Shown here piece after piece: positions 283 through 19,953 of a stretch of 29,666 bases of DNA. Under the pieces are notes generated by a model. The model was not told the origin of the DNA. It worked only from the letters and a program-made list of their open reading frames with translations, and did not search any database. Position 1 is the first letter of the stretch. Each line of letters begins with the position of its first letter. A program made the translations under genes and the position numbers. Origin of the DNA: a virus; IMG/VR virus record IMGVR_UViG_3300044213_000148, positions 1 through 29,666 of that record; one strand, 5' to 3'.

Positions 283-455
283 ACGAAAAACTATCATACG
301 AAGAATGGCGTGATCGTTATTGGGGTCAGGTCACAATGGCTGATGAACTAAAGGTGGAACTAAAACAGTTACACAATATTGATGCTGACACAGAGATTGA
401 ATCTACCATGCGTAAAGAATACGAACTGTATTTGAATGGTGAATACACCCAATGA
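279..455 (+). CDS. small acidic hypothetical protein (58 aa)
   Basis: A 58-residue protein starting MNEKLSYEEWRDRYW and ending LNGEYTQ. It starts on an ATGA overlap with the previous stop, with AGGAG at 263-267 as ribosome-binding site, and ends on an ATGA overlap with the next gene. This double coupling is the main evidence that it is real. The N-terminal MNEK resembles the paralogue start, but the FAELIVREC and HFGVEE motifs are absent, so I treat it as an unrelated interleaved gene. Function unknown. Confidence 0.65.
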   Translation: MNEKLSYEEWRDRYWGQVTMADELKVELKQLHNIDADTEIESTMRKEYELYLNGEYTQ

Positions 456-643
456 TACCAAATCCTAAAATCCAAGAACTAATCAAGAGTATGGGCATTA
501 TTCCCGAAAGCGAACATTACGAAATCGCCCAACAGGTGATACAGGAATGTATGGACATTGCCTGTGAATATGACGCACCAAAAATGAGCGGACCTGGTAT
601 GATTATTGCTGGCAGGATTGAATCACATTTCGGAGTAGAATAA
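452..643 (+). CDS. array paralogue 2 (63 aa)
   Basis: A short member of the repeated family: IQELIKSMGI at the start, a degenerate middle motif (IAQQVIQECMDIA, about residues 25-37) and a C-terminus IESHFGVE. It is the shortest and most diverged copy; the middle FAELI has become IAQQVI. It overlaps its neighbours by ATGA at the start and TAATG at the end, so translation is probably coupled along the array. No known domain recognised. Confidence 0.7.
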   Translation: MIPNPKIQELIKSMGIIPESEHYEIAQQVIQECMDIACEYDAPKMSGPGMIIAGRIESHFGVE

Positions 644-834
644 TGTATATTAGCCAAGAAGAAGTCAAAAAAATACTGGCTGTTATGGAAGAATTTCCTG
701 ATGCCCGATCCTACAAACTAGAAGCAGATAATTCTAGTGGTATTGGTAGCATTTTAACCATTACCATCGACATGCAAATCAACGGTAGAAATGCCCTTGT
801 TCGGGTAGATATTTCTGGTGTGGAGAACTGGTGA
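643..834 (+). CDS. hypothetical protein (63 aa), interleaved
   Basis: Starts on a TAATG overlap; the ribosome-binding site CGGAG lies inside the HFGVE codons of the previous gene. The protein (MYISQEEVKKILAVMEEF...) looks like an N-terminal helix followed by alternating beta strands (SILTITIDMQI, ALVRVDIS). It does not carry the array-family motifs. Function unknown. The stop overlaps the next start (TGATG). Confidence 0.65.
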   Translation: MYISQEEVKKILAVMEEFPDARSYKLEADNSSGIGSILTITIDMQINGRNALVRVDISGVENW

Positions 835-1058
835 TGAAAAAGATACCTATGTTAGAAAAATTTGCCGCACAAAGTCTTGTTTATGTAGATACAGGTCTTG
901 ACGATGGTAAGGAACTAATCTTTAGTAAAGAAAAGTTCGCCGAGTTGATTGCCAAGGAATGTGCTGGTGTTGCTGAAGTAAGTATGCCTGTAAATTCACA
1001 TCCTGATGATCGACTAAAGGTAAAGAATAGTGTATTAAAACATTTCGGAGTTGAATGA
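834..1058 (+). CDS. array paralogue 3 (74 aa)
   Basis: I chose the ATG at 834, which overlaps the previous stop, rather than the in-frame GTG at 831. It carries the family middle motif EKFAELIAKECAGVAE (around residues 38-53) and the end LKHFGVE. The N-terminal IKEL segment is replaced by MKKIPMLEKFAAQS. It lies between two genes with overlapping stop/start codons. Function unknown. Confidence 0.7.
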   Translation: MKKIPMLEKFAAQSLVYVDTGLDDGKELIFSKEKFAELIAKECAGVAEVSMPVNSHPDDRLKVKNSVLKHFGVE

Positions 1059-1267
1059 TGAACGAACAAATTAAAGAATTGTGGGCACAGGCCAGTATTC
1101 AAAAAGCAGTCAAAGGTGATACCCGAGCCACTTGGGAAGTATTTGCTGAGTTGATTGTTCGGGAATGTGCTGGCATCTACAGCAAGATTGACAACGGCAA
1201 CCTACACATGGGCACAGACGATTATCTTGAAGCATTACACAAGACCTTTTTCGGAGTTGAACAATGA
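1058..1267 (+). CDS. array paralogue 4 (69 aa)
   Basis: A full family member: MNEQIKELWAQASI at the start, VFAELIVRECAGIY in the middle and FFGVEQ at the end. Two adjacent in-frame ATGs exist (1055 and 1058); 1058 gives the MNEQ/MNER start conserved in the family. The upstream CATTTCGGAG (1041-1050) belongs to the preceding gene's last codons and provides the Shine-Dalgarno. Function unknown. Confidence 0.72.
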   Translation: MNEQIKELWAQASIQKAVKGDTRATWEVFAELIVRECAGIYSKIDNGNLHMGTDDYLEALHKTFFGVEQ

Positions 1268-1422
1268 AATACATTGTAAAACATACGGTAGATTCAAATA
1301 ATGAAACATACTCAGAATATGTTCAATCTTTTGAATCAAGAAAAAATGCAGAAGATTATGCCGATACCTTGAATAGCCGCACTCAAGGCGACAATTATTA
1401 CTATGTTGAATTAGAAGATTAA
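1264..1422 (+). CDS. small hypothetical protein (52 aa), interleaved
   Basis: A 52-residue acidic, tyrosine-rich protein beginning MKYIVKHTVDSNNETYSEYV and ending YYYVELED. It starts on an ATGA overlap after a TCGGAG ribosome-binding site at 1251-1256. The SRKNAEDYADTLN segment resembles the helix of small phage proteins that place two or three strands around one helix. The gene is followed by a leftover copy of the array repeat that is not part of any protein. Function unknown. Confidence 0.65.
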   Translation: MKYIVKHTVDSNNETYSEYVQSFESRKNAEDYADTLNSRTQGDNYYYVELED

Positions 1423-1443
1423 ACAACATTTCGGAGTTGAAGA
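1421..1443 (+). repeat. orphan copy of the array 3'-end repeat
   Basis: The sequence AACAACATTTCGGAGTTGAA directly after the stop at 1420-1422 is the same DNA that encodes KQHFGVEE at the ends of paralogues (compare 1722-1743). Here it is untranslated: gene 1264-1422 stops in another frame at its left edge. It supplies the GGAG ribosome-binding site for the gene starting at 1444. Confidence 0.8.
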
Positions 1444-1749
1444 ATGAAAAATGTAAATGTAACATTTGGTGATGGTGTAATTGACGATCTAGCCAAAATG
1501 GGTATTGATGCTGAACAGGAAGTAAGCCGTGCTCTTGGTCGACAACGAATTTTTGAACTTGCTGAACAGGCTGGATCTACACATAAGCAAAATTTAGGTG
1601 TGTATCAATTTTATACAGATGAATTGGAAAAGTTCGCCGAATTGATTGTTCGAGAATGTTTACACATTGTAGATGATGAAGGTTGTGGCGAAGGTGGTAG
1701 TATTCGTGCAATGGAAAAGATTAAACAACATTTCGGAGTTGAAGAATGA
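1444..1749 (+). CDS. array paralogue 5, N-terminally extended (101 aa)
   Basis: The family core starts late here: RIFELAEQAGS (about residue 34) corresponds to the RIKELAxQA start of other copies, LEKFAELIVRECLHIV follows near residue 60, and the end is IKQHFGVEE. The first about 33 residues (MKNVNVTFGDGVIDDLAKMG...) are extra and could be a fused small domain. Its ribosome-binding site comes from the orphan repeat just upstream. Function unknown. Confidence 0.72.
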   Translation: MKNVNVTFGDGVIDDLAKMGIDAEQEVSRALGRQRIFELAEQAGSTHKQNLGVYQFYTDELEKFAELIVRECLHIVDDEGCGEGGSIRAMEKIKQHFGVEE

Positions 1750-2054
1750 TTGACTATCACGAAGCCGTAAAGGAAATGCATAAAGGCAATGTTGTCAAGT
1801 ATGTTGGTACAGTCAACGGCAATGTGATGACCGACAATGGCTGGAGTTGGTGTATGTGTCGTGGTTGTATTTTTCCATATAAAGGTGAGCCAATTTGGAA
1901 ACTAACAGGACATATGGTCTATGATCCAGACTTTCGTTATGTACTAACTGGTGAAACAGTTGACACAAGAGCGTGGAAGCCAGAAAAGAATAAAGACCGT
2001 AAAGAGATTAAATCCAAGTTGGGTTACAGTAGGATAGGATTGGGGAACGTATGA
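1746..2054 (+). CDS. hypothetical protein (102 aa), interleaved
   Basis: Starts on ATGA with CGGAG at 1734-1738 inside the previous gene's HFGVEE codons. The N-terminal half (YHEAVKEMHKGNVVKYVGTV, then DNGWSWCMCRGCIF) resembles the small 'DUF2829-like' phage proteins in which an N-terminal helix is followed by a short beta segment. This resemblance is by eye only. Three cysteines lie close together (WCMCRGC), which could bind metal. The stop overlaps the next ATG. Confidence 0.65.
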   Translation: MIDYHEAVKEMHKGNVVKYVGTVNGNVMTDNGWSWCMCRGCIFPYKGEPIWKLTGHMVYDPDFRYVLTGETVDTRAWKPEKNKDRKEIKSKLGYSRIGLGNV

Positions 2055-2359
2055 ACGAACGAATTAAAGAACTGGCCAAACAAGCCCATTTTGATGAAGA
2101 TGGAGGTCATTTGCTGGCGCATGGAGTGTATGTCACTACCCGATTGGAAAAGTTCGCCGAGTTGATTGTGAAAGAATGTGCCGATGTATTAGTGGAGAAT
2201 GGTGATAAACAATTTGTCATTAGAACTGTGGAACCAGAATTACACAACAAAACTACAGACTGGATGCAAGGGTATGAAGAAGCGGTAAAGCATTATGGTA
2301 GTTTCTTATTGAAGAAAAATGCTCGACTGATTAAGAAACATTTCGGAGTTGAAGAATGA
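2051..2359 (+). CDS. array paralogue 6 (102 aa)
   Basis: The longest canonical copy: MNERIKELAKQAHF, then RLEKFAELIVKECADVL (about residues 31-47), a long variable middle (MQGYEEAVKHYGSF) and IKKHFGVEE at the end. The next copy (2356) follows directly, so this is a tandem pair joined through a perfect repeat junction (2337-2378) encoding the end of one and the start of the other. The ribosome-binding site is weak (GGGGAACGT). Function unknown. Confidence 0.75.
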   Translation: MNERIKELAKQAHFDEDGGHLLAHGVYVTTRLEKFAELIVKECADVLVENGDKQFVIRTVEPELHNKTTDWMQGYEEAVKHYGSFLLKKNARLIKKHFGVEE

Positions 2360-2580
2360 ACGAACGAATTAAGGAACTGATGATTCAATGTGAGAAGAAG
2401 TATTGTCAAGACCATGATGATTACTTCTACGATTTGGAAAAGTTCGCCGAGTTAATTGTATTAGAATGCTCCCAGCAAGCCTTATTGATTGGAAGATATA
2501 ATACACCGAGCGGTATTACACCAGATCTGGCTATTGCTATTGCAGTAGGACTAAAGAAACATTTTGGAGTTGAAGAATGA
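2356..2580 (+). CDS. array paralogue 7 (74 aa)
   Basis: Canonical family member: MNERIKELMIQCEKK, LEKFAELIVLECSQQA, and LKKHFGVEE at the end. Start by ATGA overlap, with GGAG at 2346-2349 in the previous gene's terminal codons. It shares the DNA string GAAAAGTTCGCCGAGTT with at least four other copies, so duplication is recent or maintained by recombination. Function unknown. Confidence 0.75.
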   Translation: MNERIKELMIQCEKKYCQDHDDYFYDLEKFAELIVLECSQQALLIGRYNTPSGITPDLAIAIAVGLKKHFGVEE

Positions 2581-2702
2581 AAGATCCGAAGTTTGGGTAT
2601 CATTGGATATGGTTTATCCCATATTACTATATTTTCCAAGTATATCTTTCTATACTAGAAAAATGGTTTCCAAAAAGATATAGAAAAGCAATAGGAGTCT
2701 GA
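2577..2702 (+). CDS. tiny aromatic membrane-like protein (41 aa)
   Basis: An ATGA-coupled start after GGAG at 2567-2570 gives MKDPKFGYHWIWFIPYYYIF followed by QVYLSILEKWFPKRYRK. The run of aromatic and hydrophobic residues (about residues 9-28) could form one short membrane segment, with a basic tail. It fills an otherwise empty 125-base stretch between two paralogues, with coupling on the left and a GGAG site for the next gene near its end. Function unknown. Confidence 0.55.
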   Translation: MKDPKFGYHWIWFIPYYYIFQVYLSILEKWFPKRYRKAIGV

Positions 2703-2704
2703 GA

Positions 2705-2986
2705 ATGGGCCAACGAATTCGAGAACTTAAAAAGCAGGCTTACGAACTTGCCGTCAAAGACCTAGAGACAAATGATCCTGCTAGATACTACAGCGATCGA
2801 GGTCCAGCAGTGGGTGCAGTGATTGATAAATTTTCTCTGTTGATTGTTAGAGAATGTATACAGACTATTATTGATAACACTCCTGCTCTCAATCCCGAGG
2901 TTGACACAGTTTGGGAACTAGGTTATAATAGGGCTATGAAAGATTGTATGCATCACATTACAGAACATTTCGGAGTTGAAGAATGA
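2705..2986 (+). CDS. array paralogue 8 (93 aa)
   Basis: Starts MGQRIRELKKQAYEL, close to the MNERIKEL consensus but diverged. The middle motif is IDKFSLLIVRECIQTI and the end ITEHFGVEE. The variable part contains WELGYNRAMKDCMHH, similar to the WMQGYEEAVKHYG region of the copy at 2051. This suggests a longer two-lobed subtype within the family. Ribosome-binding site GGAG at 2693-2696. Function unknown. Confidence 0.72.
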   Translation: MGQRIRELKKQAYELAVKDLETNDPARYYSDRGPAVGAVIDKFSLLIVRECIQTIIDNTPALNPEVDTVWELGYNRAMKDCMHHITEHFGVEE

Positions 2987-3180
2987 GATTAGAAAAGGTC
3001 AAAATAAATCCACATAATCGTGTAAAGATATTATGTTCGTATTGTGATCTCCTCAAGCACGAGAATAAAATTTATGCTGATCTTGATACACGATTCCGTT
3101 ATATCTGTCATAAGTGTACCATGGATATGATGTTGATTGATGGAAAAAATTTGGAGTTGAAGAATGAACGAACGAATTAA
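2983..3180 (+). CDS. putative small zinc-ribbon protein (65 aa)
   Basis: Contains two CxxC pairs, CSYC (residues 18-21) and CHKC (residues 42-45), a typical spacing for a small zinc ribbon. The C-terminus (NLELKNERTN) is encoded by the array repeat read in a different frame from the one used to encode HFGVEE and MNERIKEL. It therefore overlaps the next gene by 17 bases. It starts on ATGA. The role is unknown; nucleic-acid or protein binding is possible. Confidence 0.65.
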   Translation: MRLEKVKINPHNRVKILCSYCDLLKHENKIYADLDTRFRYICHKCTMDMMLIDGKNLELKNERTN

Positions 3181-3391
3181 AGAACTTATCGACCAATGTA
3201 TCAATGAACGGCTTATTGAATATGATGGCGGTGGTGAGTATGTTGAAGTGTTTGATAAAGAAAAGTTCGCCGAGTTGATTGTTCAGGAATGTATCCAAGT
3301 TTGTAAGAGCAGAGTAGGTAATAGCGATTACACGACAGGTAGGATGCATTGTGTATCAGATTTGAAAGAACATTTCGGAGTTGAAGAATGA
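3164..3391 (+). CDS. array paralogue 9 (75 aa)
   Basis: Last copy of the array: MNERIKELIDQCINER, KEKFAELIVQECIQVCK and LKEHFGVEE. The start ATG lies inside the previous gene, whose terminal codons are the repeat in another frame, with TGGAG at 3152-3156 as ribosome-binding site. Its own last codons provide CGGAG for the P-loop kinase that follows. The family's function is unknown. Confidence 0.75.
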   Translation: MNERIKELIDQCINERLIEYDGGGEYVEVFDKEKFAELIVQECIQVCKSRVGNSDYTTGRMHCVSDLKEHFGVEE

Positions 3392-11097: not shown

Positions 11098-11811
11098 GTG
11101 TATTTTGATAATTATCCAGAGTTTATTGATAATGATGTAAGAAAAAACAGAGAATACCTTACAGTAACTTCTGAGTCATTATCTAAGCGATGTTCTGTTA
11201 TTGTTCCAGAACATCTAATTAAAAATAAAACAGTCCTCGATTTGGGATCAGCACTTGGCGCCATGGGGCATTATTGCCTACACCATGGTGCTTCATCATA
11301 TACTGGTGTTGAGATTCAAAAGAACTACAGAGATAAATCTATAGAGTTATTGGGTAATTATAATTCGTCTTTTGAGATTTTTAACTCAATCGAATCTGTT
11401 CGAGGCACATATGATGTCGTATTGGCTTGTGGGTTTGTGCATGGTTTTTTTGATGTGTTTGATATATTACGCAGAGTCTGCTCACTCTCAAACAAATATG
11501 TTATAATTGAAACGCACAATCCTCAGTTTGGAGAATCTCCAGTAATATCCTTTAATCTGACTGGTAATATGGTCAAGAACGATGGACGGTATGATGTGTT
11601 TCGAGGAGTAGAAACTGTAACAAATAGGCACGCCATCGATTTAATTATGGCGGTTAATGGATTTTCTGTTGATGAGCGTCTATACCCAGAAAAGATAGAA
11701 ACCAGTCATGATGGATATAATTCGGAGACCAATTATTCTAGATTTATTTGTAGATACATAAAAGGTGGAACAGTAAATACACTTGAGGATGCAATAAATG
11801 TGGGATTTTGA
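11098..11811 (+). CDS. class I SAM-dependent methyltransferase (237 aa)
   Basis: GTG start one base after the previous stop. Rossmann motif I VLDLGSALGAMGHYCLHHGA (around residue 43) binds S-adenosylmethionine, with the motif II acid in YTGVEIQKNY and DVVLACGFVHGF as motif IV region. The substrate cannot be read from the sequence. It opens the accessory operon; the next gene is a second, related methyltransferase with a similar GSALG loop, suggesting an old duplication or paired action. Confidence 0.85.
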   Translation: MYFDNYPEFIDNDVRKNREYLTVTSESLSKRCSVIVPEHLIKNKTVLDLGSALGAMGHYCLHHGASSYTGVEIQKNYRDKSIELLGNYNSSFEIFNSIESVRGTYDVVLACGFVHGFFDVFDILRRVCSLSNKYVIIETHNPQFGESPVISFNLTGNMVKNDGRYDVFRGVETVTNRHAIDLIMAVNGFSVDERLYPEKIETSHDGYNSETNYSRFICRYIKGGTVNTLEDAINVGF

Positions 11812-12418
11812 TAAATCTGTCGCGAGTCGGTTTCAACACGAAGCCGAAACTAATATACCTGATTATCATAGGGTTGTTGATCTTTGTTTGCGAATCGTTA
11901 ATAAGAAATTCAATTTTGATTCAAAAATAGTTGATGTTGGTAGCGCTTTAGGGTATACTATTGATAAGTTGATCTCAGATGGTTACACCAACGTAATTGG
12001 TATCGAATCAAGCCAAGACATGATTGATCGTTCTTTACATAGAGAAAAAGTAATCCTCTCTGATACATTTGTTGGATCTAATTACGATGTTATTTTAATA
12101 AACTGGACGTTACATTTTATTCAAAATAAATGGTCTTACGTTAAAACTGTGTATGATTCTATGTGTGCTGGTGGAGTTTTAATTCTAACAGATAAGACGA
12201 ATCAATCTGAAACTGTAAAGAATTTATACTATGACTTTAAGAGGTCTAATGGTGTATCCGACGAGTACATATACAGTAAAGAAGAGAGTCTCAAGGGATA
12301 TATGGACACTAAAGATTTTTATGATTATGCGCACAACTTAAACTCCATTGGGTTTGATGTTGAGATAATAAATGCATCATATGGATTTGTTACATTTTAT
12401 TGTGAGAAAGTATGTTAA
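11798..12418 (+). CDS. class I SAM-dependent methyltransferase (206 aa)
   Basis: SAM-binding motif IVDVGSALGYTIDKLISDG (around residue 44), acidic residue in VIGIESSQDM, YDVILINWTLHFI as motif IV, and VLILTDKTNQSE after it. The fold fits small-molecule methyltransferases. It overlaps the previous gene by 14 bases and the next by 7. Target unknown; neighbours suggest a modified amino-acid or amide product. Confidence 0.85.
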   Translation: MWDFDKSVASRFQHEAETNIPDYHRVVDLCLRIVNKKFNFDSKIVDVGSALGYTIDKLISDGYTNVIGIESSQDMIDRSLHREKVILSDTFVGSNYDVILINWTLHFIQNKWSYVKTVYDSMCAGGVLILTDKTNQSETVKNLYYDFKRSNGVSDEYIYSKEESLKGYMDTKDFYDYAHNLNSIGFDVEIINASYGFVTFYCEKVC

Positions 12419-13005
12419 TAATAGACGATGTCGTTGGTAAAGAAACACAAGATTTAATTGAGAATTATGTGTTCTCAGTAAAACCACAATGGACTTTACA
12501 TCTTAATTATAACATGCCAATCCGTGTTCCTTATGTTTCTCCTGAAATGCGACCACAGAGCATGTTTTTTAATATTATCAAACCACACACATTTAGGTTA
12601 GACCGAGAAGAATATTCGCTTTTAATCGAACCAGTAAAACAGATTAGTTCTAAATTTTTTAAGGTCAGATGCGTCATGAGTTTACCTGTCACATCACATC
12701 AGACTTCAGTTGCGACACCTCATCTAGATGCGGATGCTCAGAGGGATTATAATGTAAACAAATTTAGAGTCGGCATTTATTACGTTTCTGACTCAGAGTC
12801 CCCAACTACAATATACAAAGATACGCATGCTTCTGTTAAAGAAAAAGGAATAACAGATAAAGATATCAATAATGGTGTGTTAGAAATAGATACTATTGTT
12901 GAGGCAAAAAAAGGTAGACTCGTTGTCCTCGACGGAGATGTGTTTCATTCTTCTGGTATCGCTAGAACCAAATATCGATCAATTATTAACTATAATTTTG
13001 AATAA
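12412..13005 (+). CDS. 2OG-Fe(II) oxygenase-like protein A (197 aa)
   Basis: The Fe ligands can be read as H-x-D in TPHLDADAQRDYN and the distal His in GDVFHSSG, with Arg in TKYRSIINYNF binding 2-oxoglutarate. The stretch FRVGIYYVSDSESPTTIYKD is the strand pair between. This arrangement is typical of phage DSBH oxygenases. The substrate is unknown; hydroxylation or desaturation of an amino-acid-like substrate is possible in this operon. TAATG overlap with the next gene. Confidence 0.75.
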   Translation: MLIIDDVVGKETQDLIENYVFSVKPQWTLHLNYNMPIRVPYVSPEMRPQSMFFNIIKPHTFRLDREEYSLLIEPVKQISSKFFKVRCVMSLPVTSHQTSVATPHLDADAQRDYNVNKFRVGIYYVSDSESPTTIYKDTHASVKEKGITDKDINNGVLEIDTIVEAKKGRLVVLDGDVFHSSGIARTKYRSIINYNFE

Positions 13006-13286
13006 TGTTCAACGACCACTTCCAATTCGATCATTTAGAAGAAGCAAGAAGAAACTCTAATTTACCTAAGAGTAATTTCTTCTATTTCAAACATATGTGG
13101 TGGGCTCTCCACGCATCTTTTCTATTTTTATTTTGGTCTGTTCTAATGCTAATCCACGCATTAGTCCCACCATTTGTCGGTTTCTATGTGATTCAAAAAC
13201 TTGTTTCATATGTAAAGCGTCTAAAAACTATACACCCAGAAGATCCTCTATTGAAGAAAGTTACGTTTGATGAATCCATTGATTAA
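13005..13286 (+). CDS. small membrane protein, DUF6356-like (93 aa)
   Basis: MFNDHFQFDHLEEARRNSNL..., then YFKHMWWALHASFLFLFWSV and LMLIHALVPPFVGFYVIQKL. The pattern of a short amphipathic start followed by a long hydrophobic segment with LxHALxP is like DUF6356 proteins. One or two membrane segments at about residues 34-70; charged tail. Overlaps both neighbours, so it is translated with the operon. Function unknown. Confidence 0.75.
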   Translation: MFNDHFQFDHLEEARRNSNLPKSNFFYFKHMWWALHASFLFLFWSVLMLIHALVPPFVGFYVIQKLVSYVKRLKTIHPEDPLLKKVTFDESID

Positions 13287-13890
13287 AGTAAATTTACCTA
13301 GACTTTCAGAGTCTCTAGAAAACAAACTTATTTCTATCGCAAGTCAATACAAAGAGTTCAAATATAATAATGGAACTCTCGGTAAAAAATATTATGAACA
13401 AAAAGAGTCTTTAGATGAAATAGAAAACTTAAAACGAATTTATGGATTTGATGACTTGCCACAACATAGATCTTGTGGGATTGGAGAACTGTCGCAAGAA
13501 GTTATTGGCGAACTAAATCATACGTTTCTTGAAGGTATGAATATGTACGTTCAGGTTATTGAAAGCGAAGATTCTTTTATACATACTGACGGTGGCCATA
13601 GGATTTGTTCGTTGTATTATCTAATTTCAGATAATGGTTCTAAGACAACATTTTATGAATCTGATAAACCTCCAGTTCTTACTACAGTTTGGAATCCAAT
13701 GGATGTTTATCCATATTATTCTTACACTATGGAACAACACAAATGGCATGCGTTTTCTCATAATGAAATACACAGCGTCAATGATATCAAAGGGCTTAGA
13801 ATTGGATTGATAATTGATTTTACGCCAAAATTCAAAACATATGATGATTTTATTAAATTTCTCAGTAACCATGGTTTGATAGATGAATAA
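13270..13890 (+). CDS. 2OG-Fe(II) oxygenase-like protein B (206 aa)
   Basis: Start ATG 13270, overlapping the membrane protein by 17 bases; an upstream TTG is less likely. The putative metal site is IHTDGGHRICSLYYLIS (H-x-D) with a distal His in FSHNEIHSV and Arg in GLRIGLIIDF. It resembles protein A in plan but not in sequence. Two such proteins flank a membrane protein in one operon. The assignment is by motif only; a cupin with other chemistry is possible. Confidence 0.65.
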   Translation: MNPLIKVNLPRLSESLENKLISIASQYKEFKYNNGTLGKKYYEQKESLDEIENLKRIYGFDDLPQHRSCGIGELSQEVIGELNHTFLEGMNMYVQVIESEDSFIHTDGGHRICSLYYLISDNGSKTTFYESDKPPVLTTVWNPMDVYPYYSYTMEQHKWHAFSHNEIHSVNDIKGLRIGLIIDFTPKFKTYDDFIKFLSNHGLIDE

Positions 13891-14686
13891 TTACCCTGCG
13901 TATAAAAATGGAACATTCTGTCAGATTAAAGATCTGACAGTTTCAATTCTAGACTTTGGTTTTATCCATTCAGACGCAACTTATGATGTTATGTCTGTTC
14001 AAAATGGTGTCGTCAAGGATTTCGACGAACACGTGAACCGATTTATGGATAATTGTAATTTTTGGGGTCTTAATACTCCAAACGATTTCCATATTAAAGA
14101 AACTATTATGGAGTTGGTTAATACATCTCCAACCAAAGATCTATTAGTCTGGATTTGTGTAACACGTGGGACACCGACAACAGGAAATCCTAGAGATCTT
14201 GGTTCATGCGAACAAAACTTCTTCGCATATACAAAACCTTATTATGGGTTCAATCCAACAAATACAGCCACTGTTTGTTTAGCCAAGCAACGAAGAAATA
14301 CCGCAATCAATCAAAGAAGAAAGAATTTCGCTTGGAATGATTTAACCATCGCTCAATTTGAGGCAAATTCTAGAGGATTTGATACAGCTATTCTATTAGA
14401 TGAGAATGGTTTCGTAACTGAAGGTCCAGGATTCAACGTTGGGTTGATACGAGGCGAACATATTATTGCTCCAGCTAAAAATTGTTTACTTGGTGTAACA
14501 ATGTCAAAGGTTAAAGAAATGGCTGGCGATATGTTTCATTATTACAACGTAACGCCAGAAACATTCAAATCCGCAGATGCTATGTTCTTGACATCAACTG
14601 CTGGTGGTGTTATTCGTGTTTCTACCTTCGAAGAAACAAATTATTCAGATAATAGGATATTGTCATGGTTACAGAACAACATATAA
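13883..14686 (+). CDS. PLP-dependent class IV aminotransferase (267 aa)
   Basis: The fold-type IV signature is present: DFGFIHSDATYDVMSV at the start, RRKNFAWNDLTIAQFEANSR containing the Schiff-base lysine, GFDTAILLDENGFVTEGPGF and NCLLGVTMSKVKEMA. The family includes branched-chain and D-amino-acid aminotransferases and aminodeoxychorismate lyase. Length (267) suits D-amino-acid or ADC-lyase-type members rather than the longer branched-chain enzymes. It would supply an amino acid or keto acid in the operon. Overlaps both neighbours. Confidence 0.88.
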   Translation: MNNYPAYKNGTFCQIKDLTVSILDFGFIHSDATYDVMSVQNGVVKDFDEHVNRFMDNCNFWGLNTPNDFHIKETIMELVNTSPTKDLLVWICVTRGTPTTGNPRDLGSCEQNFFAYTKPYYGFNPTNTATVCLAKQRRNTAINQRRKNFAWNDLTIAQFEANSRGFDTAILLDENGFVTEGPGFNVGLIRGEHIIAPAKNCLLGVTMSKVKEMAGDMFHYYNVTPETFKSADAMFLTSTAGGVIRVSTFEETNYSDNRILSWLQNNI

Positions 14687-15498
14687 ACGGAACGTATTTC
14701 AAATACTATCAGGAAGAACAAAACGAGCATCTATTGTTCTTGCTTCCTGGTCAATCCCTTTCTCCTAGAGCTTTTTGGGACTTTGAATTACCAGATGGTA
14801 AAACGCATGCGCAGCATTTCGTTGAATCGGGAATTGATGTTGTTCTTTTTGATCCAGTTGGGTATGGAAATAGTAAACATTTTTATAATTACAACAGAAT
14901 AAAATATGCAGAACAGATTAAAACAGCTACAGAGCAATTAACAAAATTATATAAAACGAAAACAATATTTGGTTTTTCCACATCAACATCCCCAGCTATG
15001 ATTGCTGGCCATAATGGATTCTTTAATAAAATTATAATTCACAGTCCTGGAATTCAAGAACGCCATGAATTTCTTCCATTCTATAGAAAAACTGGTTATT
15101 CGTTTGATAGTAATTTCGAAATTCTAATTAGAGATAGATTACAGAAGATTAGCGATGTTCTAATCCCAAAATCTAACAAAATAGATAATTGGGTGCGCCG
15201 AGTTCGTTCTGTTGTTGGTGACAGTTGGAGAGCACCATATCAAACAGTTCACGATAACCACACATATTGGTTATATAATAAGACTCATAGTTTATCATTC
15301 GATACACTCGTCAATACATTAATACTTGTTGGTGAGTATGATAATGAGATTGTTGAGATGGCTAAGTGTTACTCTAGATTCAAAACGTTGTTTCCTGACA
15401 ATAAAACTGTCGTTATTCCAAATAGCACACATTTTTCTATGTGGGAGAATAACTCGCATCTTACTCGACAAGCAATAATTGATTATATTAAGGAATAA
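14665..15498 (+). CDS. alpha/beta hydrolase (277 aa)
   Basis: Alpha/beta-hydrolase fold: LLFLLPGQSLSPRAFWDFEL (oxyanion loop), VVLFDPVGYGNS, nucleophile elbow GFSTSTSP (Ser after GF), acid in LILVGEYDNEI and the catalytic His in IPNSTHFSMWEN. Such enzymes are esterases, thioesterases, amidases or lactonases. It may release or hydrolyse an intermediate made by neighbouring genes. Overlaps the aminotransferase by 22 bases. Confidence 0.85.
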   Translation: MVTEQHINGTYFKYYQEEQNEHLLFLLPGQSLSPRAFWDFELPDGKTHAQHFVESGIDVVLFDPVGYGNSKHFYNYNRIKYAEQIKTATEQLTKLYKTKTIFGFSTSTSPAMIAGHNGFFNKIIIHSPGIQERHEFLPFYRKTGYSFDSNFEILIRDRLQKISDVLIPKSNKIDNWVRRVRSVVGDSWRAPYQTVHDNHTYWLYNKTHSLSFDTLVNTLILVGEYDNEIVEMAKCYSRFKTLFPDNKTVVIPNSTHFSMWENNSHLTRQAIIDYIKE

Positions 15499-15499
15499 A

Positions 15500-16237
15500 A
15501 TGGATAAACAAATTATAGAAAAGATTTATACCGAATGTAAACCACATTTTGTGGATCATAATATTCAAAGGATTCATGTTCACCCACAATCTGGTTTAGT
15601 TCCACTTTTGATTGATAGTGGTAGTAACAGGATAATCGGTTCGTCTAGATATTATCTCTCTATTGAAAGTATGTTAAATCATAATACCATAGAACGTAAT
15701 TCGTTTCATACTAAAAATATATCTGATAACTTATTTGTCGATTCTGATAAAATCTGGACGATTAAGTTTAATAAATTCAAAGATTGTTGGGAAGCTGATT
15801 ATAATTTCTCAAGCGAGGATTCTGTTTTTAGGTATATCTTTATGAATCAACAACTCAAAGCGATTGATATTGTTAATGATATTGTTTGCGTCCATAAAGC
15901 CAGAGTTACATACAAACTTCCATACGAACAGTATATTTTTGCTGGTAAAGTTGCAGAAGTTAAAGAGATTCTTTCTAATAATATAGAAAATGACCCATTA
16001 AACCATTATCCGATAACGAATGCGTACGCAAGATATAGAAACATTTCTTTAATTGAAGCTGCCAATGAATATGACTTTCATCTGAAGAATGAGTTTGTTT
16101 ATCTCGGCGAACTTGAATATGTTAGATTAAGATATTCAGAAATGATTTCAAAAGAAACTGATTTCAGTAATTTGAATAAAATTATGGAAGAGTTACATAA
16201 CGAGATGTATGGATATTCAAGATTTGGTGTGTCATGA
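15500..16237 (+). CDS. protein of unknown function, possible phage-tail-chaperone-like C-terminus (245 aa)
   Basis: Start ATG 15500 after AAGGA, two bases after the previous stop (the frame runs back to a TTG at 15479). The first half (IHVHPQSGLVPLLIDSGSNR...) is unfamiliar. The second half reads FAGKVAEVKEILSNNI... PITNAYARYRNISLIEAANE, then LGELEYVRLRYSEMI. This resembles, in spacing only, the helical repeats at the end of many phage tail-fibre-assembly proteins. Its place in the operon suggests a partner of the amide-forming enzyme; this is inference. Confidence 0.6.
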   Translation: MDKQIIEKIYTECKPHFVDHNIQRIHVHPQSGLVPLLIDSGSNRIIGSSRYYLSIESMLNHNTIERNSFHTKNISDNLFVDSDKIWTIKFNKFKDCWEADYNFSSEDSVFRYIFMNQQLKAIDIVNDIVCVHKARVTYKLPYEQYIFAGKVAEVKEILSNNIENDPLNHYPITNAYARYRNISLIEAANEYDFHLKNEFVYLGELEYVRLRYSEMISKETDFSNLNKIMEELHNEMYGYSRFGVS

Positions 16238-17358
16238 GTAGTTTATATCATTATAACAGCGTTGATTTGTTCAGGAAAAAGGATAATTATGATATGATTC
16301 CTGGAGGGGAGAATTTCTCTTTTATGTTTTATATCGTTGGTGGAAATTATGTTTATTATGATAGGACAGGTAATATATCAATTCCCTTGAATTATGATTT
16401 GATACCACACCTTAGATTGCCAGCGTATAAAGTAATGTCTAAAACTTTTGAGGAAATTTGCGATGAACGAGCAATTCATTTATATGAACGAGCAAAGTCG
16501 TCGAATAGAAAACTTGCTATTATGTATAGTGGAGGTATTGACTCTACGTTGGTTGTTACTTCTTTTTTGAGAAACCTTTCTAAAGAACAACTTAAAGATG
16601 TTGTTGTTTTATTGAACGAAGAAAGTATTCACGAAAATAGAAATTTCTATTTTGACCACATATCGAAGAATCTGAAATGTGAATCTTCAATGAATTATGG
16701 TTTGTATATAACATCCAAGGAATATCTGTTGATCAGCGGCGAACAAGCAGACCAACTGTTTTTACCAAATATTATATTTGATTTTCTAGATTATAAGAAG
16801 TGTTCATTAGACGTTACTTCTGCTCCTCTTGAACAAACAAGTGGTATGTTAATTGATTATTTTAATTACGCTATACCAGATTATAAAAATACCAATACTG
16901 CTGAACACATATATCATATTTTTGATAAAACAACTAAATCATGCCCAATCGACATAAAGAATATTCAAGATTTGTTGTGGTGGCATGTTCTGGTTACTAA
17001 GTGGCAGTCATGTTATACTAGAATGCTCGCATTTGTTCCAAACCCTGATTTAATTGAATTTGAAACTGGATATACAACATTCTTTTGTAACGACGACTTT
17101 CAACTTTGGTCAATGAACAATAGAGATGCCATTGTAAAAAGTAGTCTAACAACATATAAATTTGTTCAACGAGAATATATTTTCTCTTACAATAAAGACG
17201 AACAATATTATAAAGAGAAACGAAAGGCTGGTAGTCTTGGTTCTGCTGTTCGAAGAAAGCGTCCAATTTCTTACCTAGATAGTAGTATGAATTATTCTTA
17301 TGGTGTTCCATCCAAGGAATACTATAATATAAACAATGATTTTGTCAACTGGAGTTAA
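16234..17358 (+). CDS. stand-alone asparagine-synthetase-like ATP pyrophosphatase (374 aa)
   Basis: PP-loop motif SGGIDST at residues 99-105, preceded by KLAIMY, and LISGEQADQLF later, the equivalent of the SGDGADELF segment of asparagine synthetases. These enzymes adenylate a carboxylate and form an amide; relatives include beta-lactam and carbapenam synthetases. The N-terminal 90 residues are not a glutaminase domain: there is no catalytic Cys2. Ammonia or another amine would therefore have to be supplied directly. ATGA start coupling. The C-terminal region is basic (SAVRRKRPISY). Confidence 0.82.
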   Translation: MSSLYHYNSVDLFRKKDNYDMIPGGENFSFMFYIVGGNYVYYDRTGNISIPLNYDLIPHLRLPAYKVMSKTFEEICDERAIHLYERAKSSNRKLAIMYSGGIDSTLVVTSFLRNLSKEQLKDVVVLLNEESIHENRNFYFDHISKNLKCESSMNYGLYITSKEYLLISGEQADQLFLPNIIFDFLDYKKCSLDVTSAPLEQTSGMLIDYFNYAIPDYKNTNTAEHIYHIFDKTTKSCPIDIKNIQDLLWWHVLVTKWQSCYTRMLAFVPNPDLIEFETGYTTFFCNDDFQLWSMNNRDAIVKSSLTTYKFVQREYIFSYNKDEQYYKEKRKAGSLGSAVRRKRPISYLDSSMNYSYGVPSKEYYNINNDFVNWS

Positions 17359-17360
17359 AA

Positions 17361-17588
17361 ATGAAATTTTATGAGAAGGCTATGCGTTCTCTGGGTAAAG
17401 TTGTTACCTGGAGAATTTTAGTCACAATTACCAATTTTATTGGTGGATGGTTAGCGTCAGGTTCTTGGACTGTTGGTCTTGGTGTTGTTTCTTTTGCGTT
17501 GGTCGTGAATAGTATTCTGTACTTCTTCCACGAACGTGCTTGGAATGCAATTGATATTGGTAAAGAAATTAAAGAGGAGATTTTATAA
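17361..17588 (+). CDS. DUF2061-like small membrane protein (75 aa)
   Basis: KAMRSLGKVVTWRILVTITN followed by FIGGWLASGSWTVGLGVVSF and ALVVNSILYFFHERAWNAID: two membrane segments and the FHERxW end typical of DUF2061 proteins. Members are found next to sulfate/APS-reduction or unknown transport genes in bacteria. Here it directly precedes the symporter with a TAATG overlap, suggesting joint expression and possibly a common membrane role. Confidence 0.82.
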   Translation: MKFYEKAMRSLGKVVTWRILVTITNFIGGWLASGSWTVGLGVVSFALVVNSILYFFHERAWNAIDIGKEIKEEIL

Positions 17589-19015
17589 TGCTTGGATATG
17601 ATTGGTTTATTATTGCGGCTTTTATTTTGTTTGTGTCGGCAGTTCCTGTTACTGCTTTTGCGTGGGGGTATGGTAAAACAAAGGAAAGTTTCCTTTTGAG
17701 TTTACGAAATATTGGTCCAGTATTACTTGGTGTCAGTTTAGCCATGGCATGGGCTAACAGCCCTTCTGTATTACTTGCTTCGGCTCAGGCATATAATGTT
17801 GGTTTAGTTGGATGGTTTTGGTTTGCTGTTGGTAATATTTTGACACTTGCCTGTTTTGGTTTTGCAGCTCAAACTGTCAGAAAGAAACTACCAGAAGGAT
17901 ATACTCTTGCTGGATTCTTTAGAGAAACTCATGGCAATGTTATTCATAAAAATTATTTGTTCTGCGCTATCGCAATCTCAGTATTAGCGATGTGTATATC
18001 TCTTGTCGGTATATCTACATTGATCAGTATTACGTCTGGAATTTCTAAATTGTGGGCGTGTTTGATGATTCTTGCTCTTTCTGTTACTTTAAGTATTCGA
18101 ATTGGCTTTAGAGCCACCGTATTAGTTGAAGTTGTTAAGTTTGTTCTTGGTGTTTCAGTTCTTGGTGGAATTTTATATTTCTTATCAACTACTCCAGCAA
18201 TCTTAAGTCTAGCCAATGGATTCTCTGGCGTAAAGGGAACAGGTGGTGATATTTTCTCTGGGGCAAATTCCTGGACGATTTTTGCTACATTTGGTGTTAT
18301 TACTTTCTTTGGTCAAATGAGTGCACCATGGGTTGATAATAATTTTATGCAAAGAGCATTCTCATTTGGTGGTGATAAAAATAAGATTTGGTTTTCTTTC
18401 TTGATCGGATCAATCTGTTTTGCGTTCTTCCCTGTTCTTAGTGGTTTGATTTCCTTCTATGGCGTTGCTAATGGTGTTACTATTCCAAATGGCCAAGGAA
18501 CCTATGCACTATATCACGTAATCGATCAGCTTGTTGGACCAACTGCTGTTTTCTTGTTCTGTTCTTTTGTGATGGTTTCTTGTGTTGCGATTGTTGACGA
18601 TCAAATGAATAATATTTCTGCTTTGATTAAACATGATATCATCGAAACATACAACATTGATGAACAAAAGTCTTTAGTTTATACTCGATATGGCGCTGTT
18701 TGTTTTGCTTTACTGGCGATTGCCATTGTTAATGTTCCATTCGTTAACTTAACATATATCCTTCTTCTTGGATATATTATTAGAGCTTCTCTTGGTTTGA
18801 CAACTGTCGGGTTAATTTTTAGACCAGACTGGTTTGAAGGTAAGATTACTGGTATTGTTTTAGTTGTTTCTTTACTTTTGACTGGTATTGGGTTTACGAC
18901 TATCGAGCTTACTGGCTTGAAGGAATATATCTTACCATTAACCCTTACAAGTACATTTGGAACGCCATTACTTGCATTCTTGTTATCGAAATACTTGACA
19001 CACAAGAATAAATAG
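17588..19015 (+). CDS. sodium:solute symporter family (SSS) transporter (475 aa)
   Basis: About 12-13 hydrophobic segments over 475 residues, the usual length for the sodium/solute symporter (SSF/SLC5) family. LLGVSLAMAWANSPSVLLA near residue 45 fits the unwound TM1 of the LeuT-type fold, and MSAPWVDNNFMQRAFSFGGD is the family's mid-protein signature with the QR pair. Substrates in the family include proline, pantothenate, urea and organic acids; the substrate here cannot be read. It closes the accessory operon. The -35 box of the tmRNA promoter lies inside its last codons. Confidence 0.85.
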   Translation: MLGYDWFIIAAFILFVSAVPVTAFAWGYGKTKESFLLSLRNIGPVLLGVSLAMAWANSPSVLLASAQAYNVGLVGWFWFAVGNILTLACFGFAAQTVRKKLPEGYTLAGFFRETHGNVIHKNYLFCAIAISVLAMCISLVGISTLISITSGISKLWACLMILALSVTLSIRIGFRATVLVEVVKFVLGVSVLGGILYFLSTTPAILSLANGFSGVKGTGGDIFSGANSWTIFATFGVITFFGQMSAPWVDNNFMQRAFSFGGDKNKIWFSFLIGSICFAFFPVLSGLISFYGVANGVTIPNGQGTYALYHVIDQLVGPTAVFLFCSFVMVSCVAIVDDQMNNISALIKHDIIETYNIDEQKSLVYTRYGAVCFALLAIAIVNVPFVNLTYILLLGYIIRASLGLTTVGLIFRPDWFEGKITGIVLVVSLLLTGIGFTTIELTGLKEYILPLTLTSTFGTPLLAFLLSKYLTHKNK

Positions 19016-19023
19016 AGTATAAT
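18995..19023 (+). promoter_or_regulatory. consensus sigma70 promoter P3, driving the tmRNA gene
   Basis: TTGACA (18995-19000), 17-base spacer, TATAAT (19018-19023). The expected start near 19030 lies just before the acceptor piece of the tmRNA. It is the only promoter-like element in this gap and matches the host consensus perfectly. Confidence 0.88.
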
Positions 19024-19029
19024 TAAAGG

Positions 19030-19095
19030 AATTGTTGTAATCCCTTCAAAGCGAAGGACTTCTGGACGTGGGTTCGACTCCCACCATCTCCACCA
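19030..19095 (+). ncRNA. tmRNA acceptor piece
   Basis: Contains a small hairpin (CCTTC 19043-19047 / GAAGG 19053-19057), the T-arm GTGGG-TTCGACT-CCCAC (19068-19084), the 3' strand of the acceptor stem CATCTCC (19085-19091), discriminator A and encoded CCA. There is no anticodon arm upstream, which separates it from an ordinary tRNA. The 5' end is set at the predicted transcription start. Confidence 0.85.
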
Positions 19096-19185
19096 AAAGA
19101 ACATATAGGACATGGTTACGTCATTAGCCAGTCACAAACGAAGGACGTTATAAGTTTGTGGGAGAGACTTATGTGTTCTTTTGAT
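19096..19185 (+). other. intervening segment of the permuted tmRNA precursor
   Basis: About 90 bases removed during maturation. Its ends are complementary (AAAAGAACA near 19095 with TGTTCTTTT at 19174-19182) and extend the acceptor stem, holding the two halves together. Inside are two further hairpins: TGGTTA/TAGCCA with loop CGTCAT, and CACAAAC/GTTTGTG. Host tRNA-type processing (RNase P at 19186, 3' trimming at CCA) is expected. Confidence 0.8.
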
Positions 19186-19353
19186 GGGGATGCCATGGTT
19201 TCGACAGGGGTAGATAGTAGAGACGGCAACACGGTAGGCGATGACCGTAAATCAAGCAAACTAAGTAAATGCAAACGACTCTGTCTTCGCATTAGCAGCC
19301 TAAACGCTGCTTAGGGTTTCGGTAGGTTTCCTCGTAACAGAATAACCTACCAT
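19186..19353 (+). ncRNA. tmRNA coding piece
   Basis: Starts GGGGATG, followed by the D-arm consensus TGGTTTCGACAGG, the resume region, the tag frame and a helix (AGCAGC 19294-19299 / GCTGCT 19306-19311) enclosing the stop codon, as helix 5 does in known tmRNAs. A last stem GGTAGGTT (19321-19328) / AACCTACC (19344-19351) closes the piece. The 3' end is approximate. Confidence 0.85.
19271..19303 (+). other. tmRNA tag reading frame, ANDSVFALAA
   Basis: GCA is the resume codon, then AAC GAC TCT GTC TTC GCA TTA GCA GCC and stop TAA: peptide ANDSVFALAA. The AND start and ALAA end match proteobacterial tags; LAA is the recognition end for ClpXP-type proteases. Upstream bases AGTAAAT fit the usual resume context. 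Confidence 0.9.
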
Positions 19354-19359
19354 TTTATT
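19321..19359 (+). terminator. possible terminator/3' stem after tmRNA
   Basis: Stem GGTAGGTT/AACCTACC with a 15-base loop, followed by ATTTTATTAA. The T-run is short and interrupted and the stem may instead be a structural part of the tmRNA, so termination is uncertain; partial read-through would feed the genes at 19381 onwards. Confidence 0.4.
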
Positions 19360-19380
19360 AACTTGAAAAGGTAGATTTAA

Positions 19381-19953
19381 ATGAAAAAATATTTGGCTGT
19401 TTTGGCTCTGTTGGTTTCTGGGTCTGTGTTTGCAGAAACTACTGGAAGCGTTAGTTATCAGGTTCAACAAAACGATAGTGGGACGCAAGGTCATGTAATG
19501 AATTATAAACTTTCAAATGAGTTTTATAAACATTTAGAAGGCGACTTAACTGTGAACAATTTTGTTGCTGATGGTTCGAATGCGACATATATCAGAACTG
19601 AAGTTGGTGTAACACCAAAATATGATGTTACTAATTTTCTAACTGTAGCTTCTCGATTCAGTGTTGGTAATGTTCAGTCGAGCAATCATGGCAAATGGCA
19701 AACATATACAATTGAACCAAAGATTGTAGCAAAGCTACCTTATGATTTTGATGCAACAGTTGGATTCCGTTTCCGTTCTGGTTTTGGTGATAACGACCTA
19801 GATACTTCTAGAACATATGGCGCTGCTCTTGGTTATAATATCACTAAGCACGACAAAGTTAGTCTTGGTGTTTCTAAGTTGAGTGGCGATAATGGTGGAG
19901 TCGCTAATAATGGTAACCACACATATGCTGTTACATACGCTCGAGGATTCTGA
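19381..19953 (+). CDS. secreted outer-membrane beta-barrel protein (190 aa)
   Basis: Signal peptide MKKYLAVLALLVSGSVFA, cleaved before ETTG. The mature part of about 172 residues alternates polar/hydrophobic strands (TYIRTEVGVTPKYDV, FLTVASRFSVGNV, YTIEPKIVAKL, DFDATVGFRFRSGFGD, AALGYNI, KVSLGVS) and ends HTYAVTYARGF with a terminal Phe, the BAM assembly signal. It should form an 8-10-strand barrel in the outer membrane. Phage barrels of this sort may alter receptors or exclude other phages, but that is inference. RBS AAAAGG at 19366-19371. Confidence 0.85.
   Translation: MKKYLAVLALLVSGSVFAETTGSVSYQVQQNDSGTQGHVMNYKLSNEFYKHLEGDLTVNNFVADGSNATYIRTEVGVTPKYDVTNFLTVASRFSVGNVQSSNHGKWQTYTIEPKIVAKLPYDFDATVGFRFRSGFGDNDLDTSRTYGAALGYNITKHDKVSLGVSKLSGDNGGVANNGNHTYAVTYARGF

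Follow-up and report, generated by a model that had tools for sequence, protein, structure and literature searches.

A beta-type circularly permuted tmRNA gene in a T4-like phage contig, and hypervariable spacers among its relatives

Introduction

Phage-encoded two-piece tmRNA has been published for the phage Melnitz (PMC9004378). The same study counted 53 two-piece tmRNAs among 18,146 phage genomes, with 50 of the 53 being marine or aquatic, and found a permuted tmRNA in 17 of 47 related contigs (PMC9004378). Across all forms, 79 unique phage tmRNA sequences are on record (PMC11915505). The tmRNA of mycobacteriophage DS6A is also encoded by the phage, but it lacks a tag and inhibits the host tmRNA (cited in PMC11915505). 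Among bacteria, betaproteobacteria possess permuted ssrA genes (Rfam model RF01850), including a copy on a Cupriavidus megaplasmid (L245).

Here we describe a gene of this kind in the window, the stretch of 29,666 nucleotides that constitutes virus record IMGVR_UViG_3300044213_000148. An original prediction, made from the sequence alone, had placed a phage-encoded, circularly permuted tmRNA in this stretch. The gene is a further case of the published phage permuted tmRNA, not the first.

A beta-type permuted ssrA gene in the window

With cmscan and Rfam, the window matches beta_tmRNA (RF01850) at 18981-19357 on the plus strand (162.5 bits, cut-off 84, E 1.3e-50) and tmRNA_permuted (RF04321) at 19033-19303 on the plus strand (151.8 bits, cut-off 47, E 1.8e-30). 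The covariance search that had been proposed as a check of the original prediction therefore scored above the cut-off with both models. ARAGORN reports a single gene in the window, at 19003-19394, with a permuted layout and the tag ANDSVFALAA. The features of the locus are as follows.

18995..19023, plus strand: sigma-70-type promoter, TTGACA-17 nt-TATAAT, within the 3' end of the upstream transporter ORF (12/12 consensus; beta_tmRNA coverage)
19033..19095, plus strand: 3' (acceptor) half, with the start of the long helix, T-arm, acceptor 3' strand, A73 and CCA (RF04321)
19057-19095, plus strand: 3' tRNA domain (ARAGORN)
19068-19084, plus strand: T-arm
19085-19091, plus strand: acceptor 3' strand
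19093-19095, plus strand: CCA, after A73
19094..19109, plus strand: 5' arm of the spacer-closing helix (16 pairs with 19168-19183)
19096..19185, plus strand: intervening spacer of 90 nt, expected to be excised (arms pair 10/10; hairpin z -5.67)
19168..19183, plus strand: 3' arm of the spacer-closing helix (16 pairs with 19094-19109)
19182-19185, plus strand: conserved UGAU leader, adjoining the 5' end of the mature piece
19186..19212, plus strand: tRNA-like 5' domain, with the acceptor 5' strand GGGGATG and a D-loop-like region (ARAGORN, RF04321/RF01850)
19271..19303, plus strand: tag frame, with resume codon GCA, ANDSVFALAA and stop TAA (ARAGORN)
19294..19311, plus strand: helix enclosing the tag stop codon (RNA fold)
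19322..19350, plus strand: last helix/pseudoknot region of the 5' half, GGTAGGT..ACCTACC (Rfam match, RNA fold)

The acceptor half is encoded first and is separated by the spacer from the 5' half, which starts at 19186, with CATCTCC-A-CCA (19085-19095) preceding GGGGATG (19186-19192). Read directly from the sequence, GGGGAUG and CAUCUCC form 7 of 7 pairs of the acceptor stem, in which pair 3-70 is G-U (G19188, U19089), and the T-arm reads GTGGG-TTCGACT-CCCAC. A G-U pair at 3-70 is an identity element for alanine. In the RNA fold, 19294-19299 pairs with 19306-19311 around the tag stop codon. The promoter agrees with the sigma-70 consensus at 12 of 12 positions and is nearly identical to the promoter in the related locus L121; because the beta_tmRNA model also spans 18995-19023, it is placed as in the bacterial gene. 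The acceptor half with its T-arm and CCA ahead of the 5' half, the 7-bp stem between the halves, the tag frame with its stop helix, and the perfect promoter had all been predicted, and each is borne out here.

Three further features go beyond that prediction: a long hairpin in the precursor, described below, and the absence of both a terminator and the terminator-like 3' hairpin of the beta_tmRNA model. A search for a terminator 3' of the window tmRNA found none, and in the model alignment a 20-nt gap stands in place of the hairpin. The 5' piece is thus without a defined 3' end, and with neither element present transcription probably continues into the outer-membrane-protein-like gene at 19381.

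Judged by its sequence, this T4-like phage carries a complete and probably functional circularly permuted ssrA gene of the beta type. A phage tmRNA could alternatively serve as an inhibitor or decoy of host trans-translation, for which the tag-less DS6A form, described in PMC11915505 as inhibiting E. coli tmRNA, is a phage precedent. However, a decoy would need none of the elements present in the window gene, which has its tag frame in full, a resume region, a stop helix and a pseudoknot region, making this role very unlikely.

Comparison with described permuted tmRNAs

The gene of Melnitz (EXVC044M) resembles the window gene in being permuted and phage-encoded, in its slot in the order exonuclease - tmRNA - gp33 - gp59 - gp32, and in its closing helix and UGAU. 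It differs in being alpha-type (106.7 bits with alpha_tmRNA), with a 14-aa tag and a 142-nt spacer, whereas the window gene is beta-type, with a 10-aa tag and a 90-nt non-coding spacer. A glutamine riboswitch lies just downstream of the Melnitz tmRNA, whereas the window has no riboswitch match, and the Melnitz spacer contains an unannotated frame with a Shine-Dalgarno site and ATG that runs into the 5' half. Elsewhere, in phage contig L138, a manA RNA motif adjoins the permuted tmRNA, which may be compared with the glutamine riboswitch beside the Melnitz tmRNA (L362).

The betaproteobacterial permuted ssrA genes share the order and the ALAA tag class with the window gene, and in two of three comparators their halves are 73-75% identical to its own. 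The spacer of the Cupriavidus gene has paired ends and a UGAU end, as in the window, but is 32 nt long compared with 90. The phage gene also lacks the 3' hairpin of the beta_tmRNA model.

The tmRNAs of Pelagibacter phage HTVC008M, Rhodobacter phage RcXuper and Pseudomonas phages (Samunavirus) are permuted as in the window, and their spacers likewise pair at the ends and have UGAU, but they belong to other lineages and have other tags. The permuted tmRNA genes of HTVC008M (L402, 145.1 kb) and RcXuper (L400, 3.2 kb) lack annotation in the GenBank records. Pseudomonas phage PA_L9 (L401), whose spacer has paired ends and UGAU, likewise carries a permuted tmRNA without tmRNA annotation, as do UF_RH6, PaMx31, SM1 (twice) and FBPa45. 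The host of these phages, P. aeruginosa, has a one-piece tmRNA of its own.

Phage setting and conservation of the locus

The window record is a 29.7-kb T4-like phage contig, a fragment, with PHROGs matches for PhoH, endolysin, a ClpP-like protease, gp32, tail tube, exonuclease, gp33 and gp59. By gp32, the nearest isolate is the Methylophilales phage Melnitz, at 51.5% identity. A permuted tmRNA occurs in 18 of 49 virus records with a close gp32, which is a lower bound as many of the remaining records are short fragments. The statement in the original prediction that tmRNAs in phages are rare thus holds for phages overall, with a tmRNA in 2.3% of phage genomes (PMC9004378), but not for this lineage.

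In the kin the tmRNA occupies the same slot, between exonuclease and gp33/gp59/gp32, and the order PhoH - endolysin - exonuclease - (variable) - tmRNA - (variable) - SleB - ClpP - gp33 - gp59 - gp32 is mostly kept in those tested. Melnitz and HTVC008M likewise have the tmRNA between exonuclease and gp33. Among 61 distinct phage genes, 7 of 7 acceptor pairs form in 58, 3-70 is G-U in 59, and A73-CCA is present in 59. Rfam, ARAGORN, PHROGs, the 18 kin records and synteny all agree with a phage-encoded, circularly permuted gene that is two-piece by design.

Integration at bacterial ssrA genes is common, and the gene might be a mere passenger, either an ssrA copy or fragment from imprecise excision at a bacterial ssrA att site, an origin considered by the Melnitz authors (PMC9004378), or a mis-assembled bacterial stretch. 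However, the location is conserved across many related phages, complete isolates among them, the halves are 93-99% identical between phages with unrelated spacers, and the full structure is retained in 58 of 61 phage genes. The probability that the gene is a passenger is close to negligible.

Several other features of the window and its kin were observed. Between exonuclease and tmRNA, at 11098-19015, the window has a cassette with two methyltransferases, a class IV aminotransferase, an alpha/beta hydrolase, a DUF2061 membrane protein, a sodium:solute symporter and several proteins that match nothing in Pfam; much of this cassette is found again, minus the symporter, in the nearest relative, L059, and it is absent from other kin. 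No relatives of the upstream transporter were found in viral contigs. At 452-3391, the window contains a run of small tandem paralogous ORFs ending with the motif FAELIVRECxx..HFGVE.

Lineage and origin

The beta model matches the window gene and most of its kin, and the alpha model matches Melnitz and some marine genes. A tree of the two halves, which is a quick one of 154 columns with many weak forks, places the window in a group at SH-aLRT 97 together with 33 phages and two betaproteobacterial genes, and none of the 43 alpha rows falls in this group. The beta-type comparators were only three (L202, L245 and L246), and searches by class and phylum around the L026 metagenome-assembled genome (MAG) yielded no betaproteobacterial set that could be used. 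For many phages the halves are 93-99% identical to those of the window, compared with 69-75% for the three beta-type genes; many loci were fetched by a 5'-half motif, so similarity in that motif is partly ascertained, with the spacer result unaffected.

These identities, together with synteny across divergent phages, point to an old resident and not to a recent pick-up. The original prediction that the phage acquired a host-like gene is consistent with the grouping of the halves with betaproteobacterial genes, but not as a recent event, and we read the sequences as those of a gene that passed from the beta lineage to phages long ago and has stayed in them since. In Melnitz the alpha type occupies this slot, which suggests that tmRNAs have been replaced at the locus. 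For the host of the window phage, the beta affinity is only suggestive; Melnitz, which infects an OM43 host, has a gene of the alpha type (PMC9004378).

When bacterial genomes were scanned for the exact T-arm, the matches were mostly from Clostridia, with one phage contig from a MAG labelled Gammaproteobacteria (L026), and so no host can be named from the scan. A gapped pattern with a 76-106-nt spacer had no matches because the flanking motifs vary. The L026 contig (also L398-L399; GTDB genome contig CALMJT010000228.1) is a 46-kb T4-like phage contig binned in an Alteromonadales-labelled MAG, and its permuted tmRNA has halves 97% identical to those of the window and a 37-aa spacer ORF.

Predicted processing and function

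From the acceptor stem through the spacer, the window pre-RNA folds as one long hairpin (z -5.67), with 0 of 200 shuffles as stable. The spacer arms pair at 10 of 10 positions and the closing helix extends to 16 pairs (19094-19109 with 19168-19183). This closing hairpin supports cleavage into two RNAs, one predicted to end in CCA and the other to start at the acceptor 5' strand.

In the mechanism that we propose, host polymerase would transcribe the precursor from the strong sigma-70 promoter, acceptor half first. Pairing of the acceptor-stem strands and closing of the spacer, as seen in the sequence and the fold, would be followed by cutting between UGAU and GGGG by host RNase P and by 3' processing that ends the acceptor piece at CCA (19095), as expected from the known mechanism. 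The product would be a two-piece tmRNA joined by base pairing. It could then be charged with alanine through G3-U70, loaded with host SmpB, and, during infection, enter ribosomes that have stalled on broken messages, where ANDSVFALAA would be added for host proteases. SmpB was found in 0 of 22 phage records searched, the window included, versus 10 of 14 control genomes, and the phage tmRNA presumably relies on host SmpB.

Ribosome rescue by the window tmRNA is plausible. A different main use, proposed for Melnitz, would be the tagging of host or unneeded early proteins for amino acid recycling. The window tag ends in ALAA, a class of ending that is recognised by ClpXP, and tags vary widely between phages, with 27-aa forms such as AKASTFKYWQAPVGVSAKNDIEFALAA, so that tag content may be under selection. 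However, tag choice alone cannot discriminate host from phage proteins, and what tmRNA acts on is a stalled ribosome, whichever protein is being made. We consider recycling unlikely to be the main use, although it is the least improbable of the alternatives to rescue. Overall, the best explanation of the locus is a complete beta-type permuted ssrA gene, processed by the host and long resident in phages, with a hypervariable spacer, to which we assign a probability of roughly 0.88.

A hypervariable spacer with complementary ends

Of 61 distinct phage spacers, 46 end in UGAU and 12 in UAAU. On average, 9.20 of the first ten spacer bases pair with the ten before the leader, compared with 6.29 +- 0.18 when partners are shuffled among sequences (0 of 2000 shuffles reach the observed value) and 4.2-5.9 when the register is slid by 1-3. 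Most spacer-end positions show four to six pair types, which indicates covariation and not conservation alone.

The remainder of the spacer varies freely. In 39 phage genes with halves more than 90% identical to those of the window, there is no 9-mer in common with the window spacer core. Phage spacers range from 25 to 256 nt, compared with 4-48 nt in most of 46 bacterial genes, a set drawn from high-scoring matches. A 90-nt spacer had been considered as a phage marker and was dropped, as one alphaproteobacterial-class genome has 89 nt (L396). Four pairs of genes have a common spacer though their halves are less than 90% identical, indicating recombination. The Cupriavidus gene fits paired ends and a final UGAU into 32 nt, which indicates that the spacer design was inherited from bacteria. 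The best explanation of these sequences is that the spacer is a hypervariable site, with its sequence free except for the complementary ends and the UGAU leader.

Putative microprotein genes in the spacers of relatives

In a subset of relatives that does not include the window, the spacer reads CCA-UAAGGAGAUUAGU-AUG and remains open to the UGA of the UGAU leader, with a Shine-Dalgarno site directly after the tmRNA CCA. In a sample of 63 spacers that was not chosen for spanning frames, 8 have both a spanning frame and a Shine-Dalgarno motif, compared with 0.18 predicted by shuffling; a targeted pattern search yielded many more. An ORF in the spacer of the window itself was rejected, the longest being 13 aa, as expected by chance (p 0.78).

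Selection was assessed as dN/dS by the Nei-Gojobori method and compared across reading frames. The ratio is 0.21 for a 24-aa membrane-peptide family (other frames 0.86 and 2.38), 0.12 for a 44-aa spacer family (1.16 and 1.62) and 0.07 for a 66-aa spacer pair (1.05 and 1.86). Results are not clear-cut for a small family of four sequences with 86-nt spacers (0.44, with another frame at 0.29), nor for the upstream frame of the two-gene spacers (0.37 versus 0.38). Neither Pfam nor PHROGs assigned the spacer peptides to a credible family, and tblastn with the 44-aa peptide found no isolate phage.

Membrane-type peptides of 22-24 aa, such as MNDDLTHLAIGVVVVLVVFALVLL, whose stop is the UGA of UGAU, occur in the permuted tmRNA spacers of 14 loci (L150, L153, L168, L174, L200, L249, L254, L263, L265, L269, L289, L305, L331 and L352). 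In 177-nt spacers there are two frames, an acidic frame of 23 aa (MKEMISGDSDEESSCKKNIGGDV), which may or may not be coding, and a 44-aa membrane peptide (MKNPLVKKISVVMFKLYILWSICADIILISGIIALLLGYGKISF); these spacers (L251, L253, L266, L276, L285, L292, L298, L326, L330, L336 and L347) are in alpha-type genes where tested. Several tmRNA genes with coding spacers have tags of 23-30 aa. Very long tags, of 23-31 aa, occur in L140, L146, L168, L172, L174, L178, L199, L254, L272 and L310, and some look like a second tag fused to an ordinary one (AKSAFKFYEVDVAVNDSKFALAA).

Because the Shine-Dalgarno site lies within the closing helix, a spacer frame may be translatable only before the 3' arm is transcribed. 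We think it rather likely that the spacer is a hypervariable cargo site in aquatic phages, in which a sizeable minority of genes, the window gene not among them, carry one or two microprotein genes, mostly for small membrane peptides, so that a microprotein and a rescue RNA would both come from one transcript and closing of the hairpin would shut off the ribosome-binding site. A literature search that extended to neither preprints nor most subscription papers found no published report of microprotein-coding tmRNA spacers. The hypervariable and sometimes coding spacer looks new, as a trait of the family and not of the window.

Implications

The window gene is a beta-type addition to the known phage permuted tmRNAs, and permuted tmRNA is a stable, syntenic part of a freshwater and marine T4-like lineage. 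This stability supports ribosome rescue as a standing need of these phages, not an accident. Melnitz, RcXuper and the Samunavirus phages of P. aeruginosa offer cultured systems for trans-translation by phage RNA. Comparison across the family reveals a composite gene design, in which the waste segment of a structural RNA would carry microproteins.
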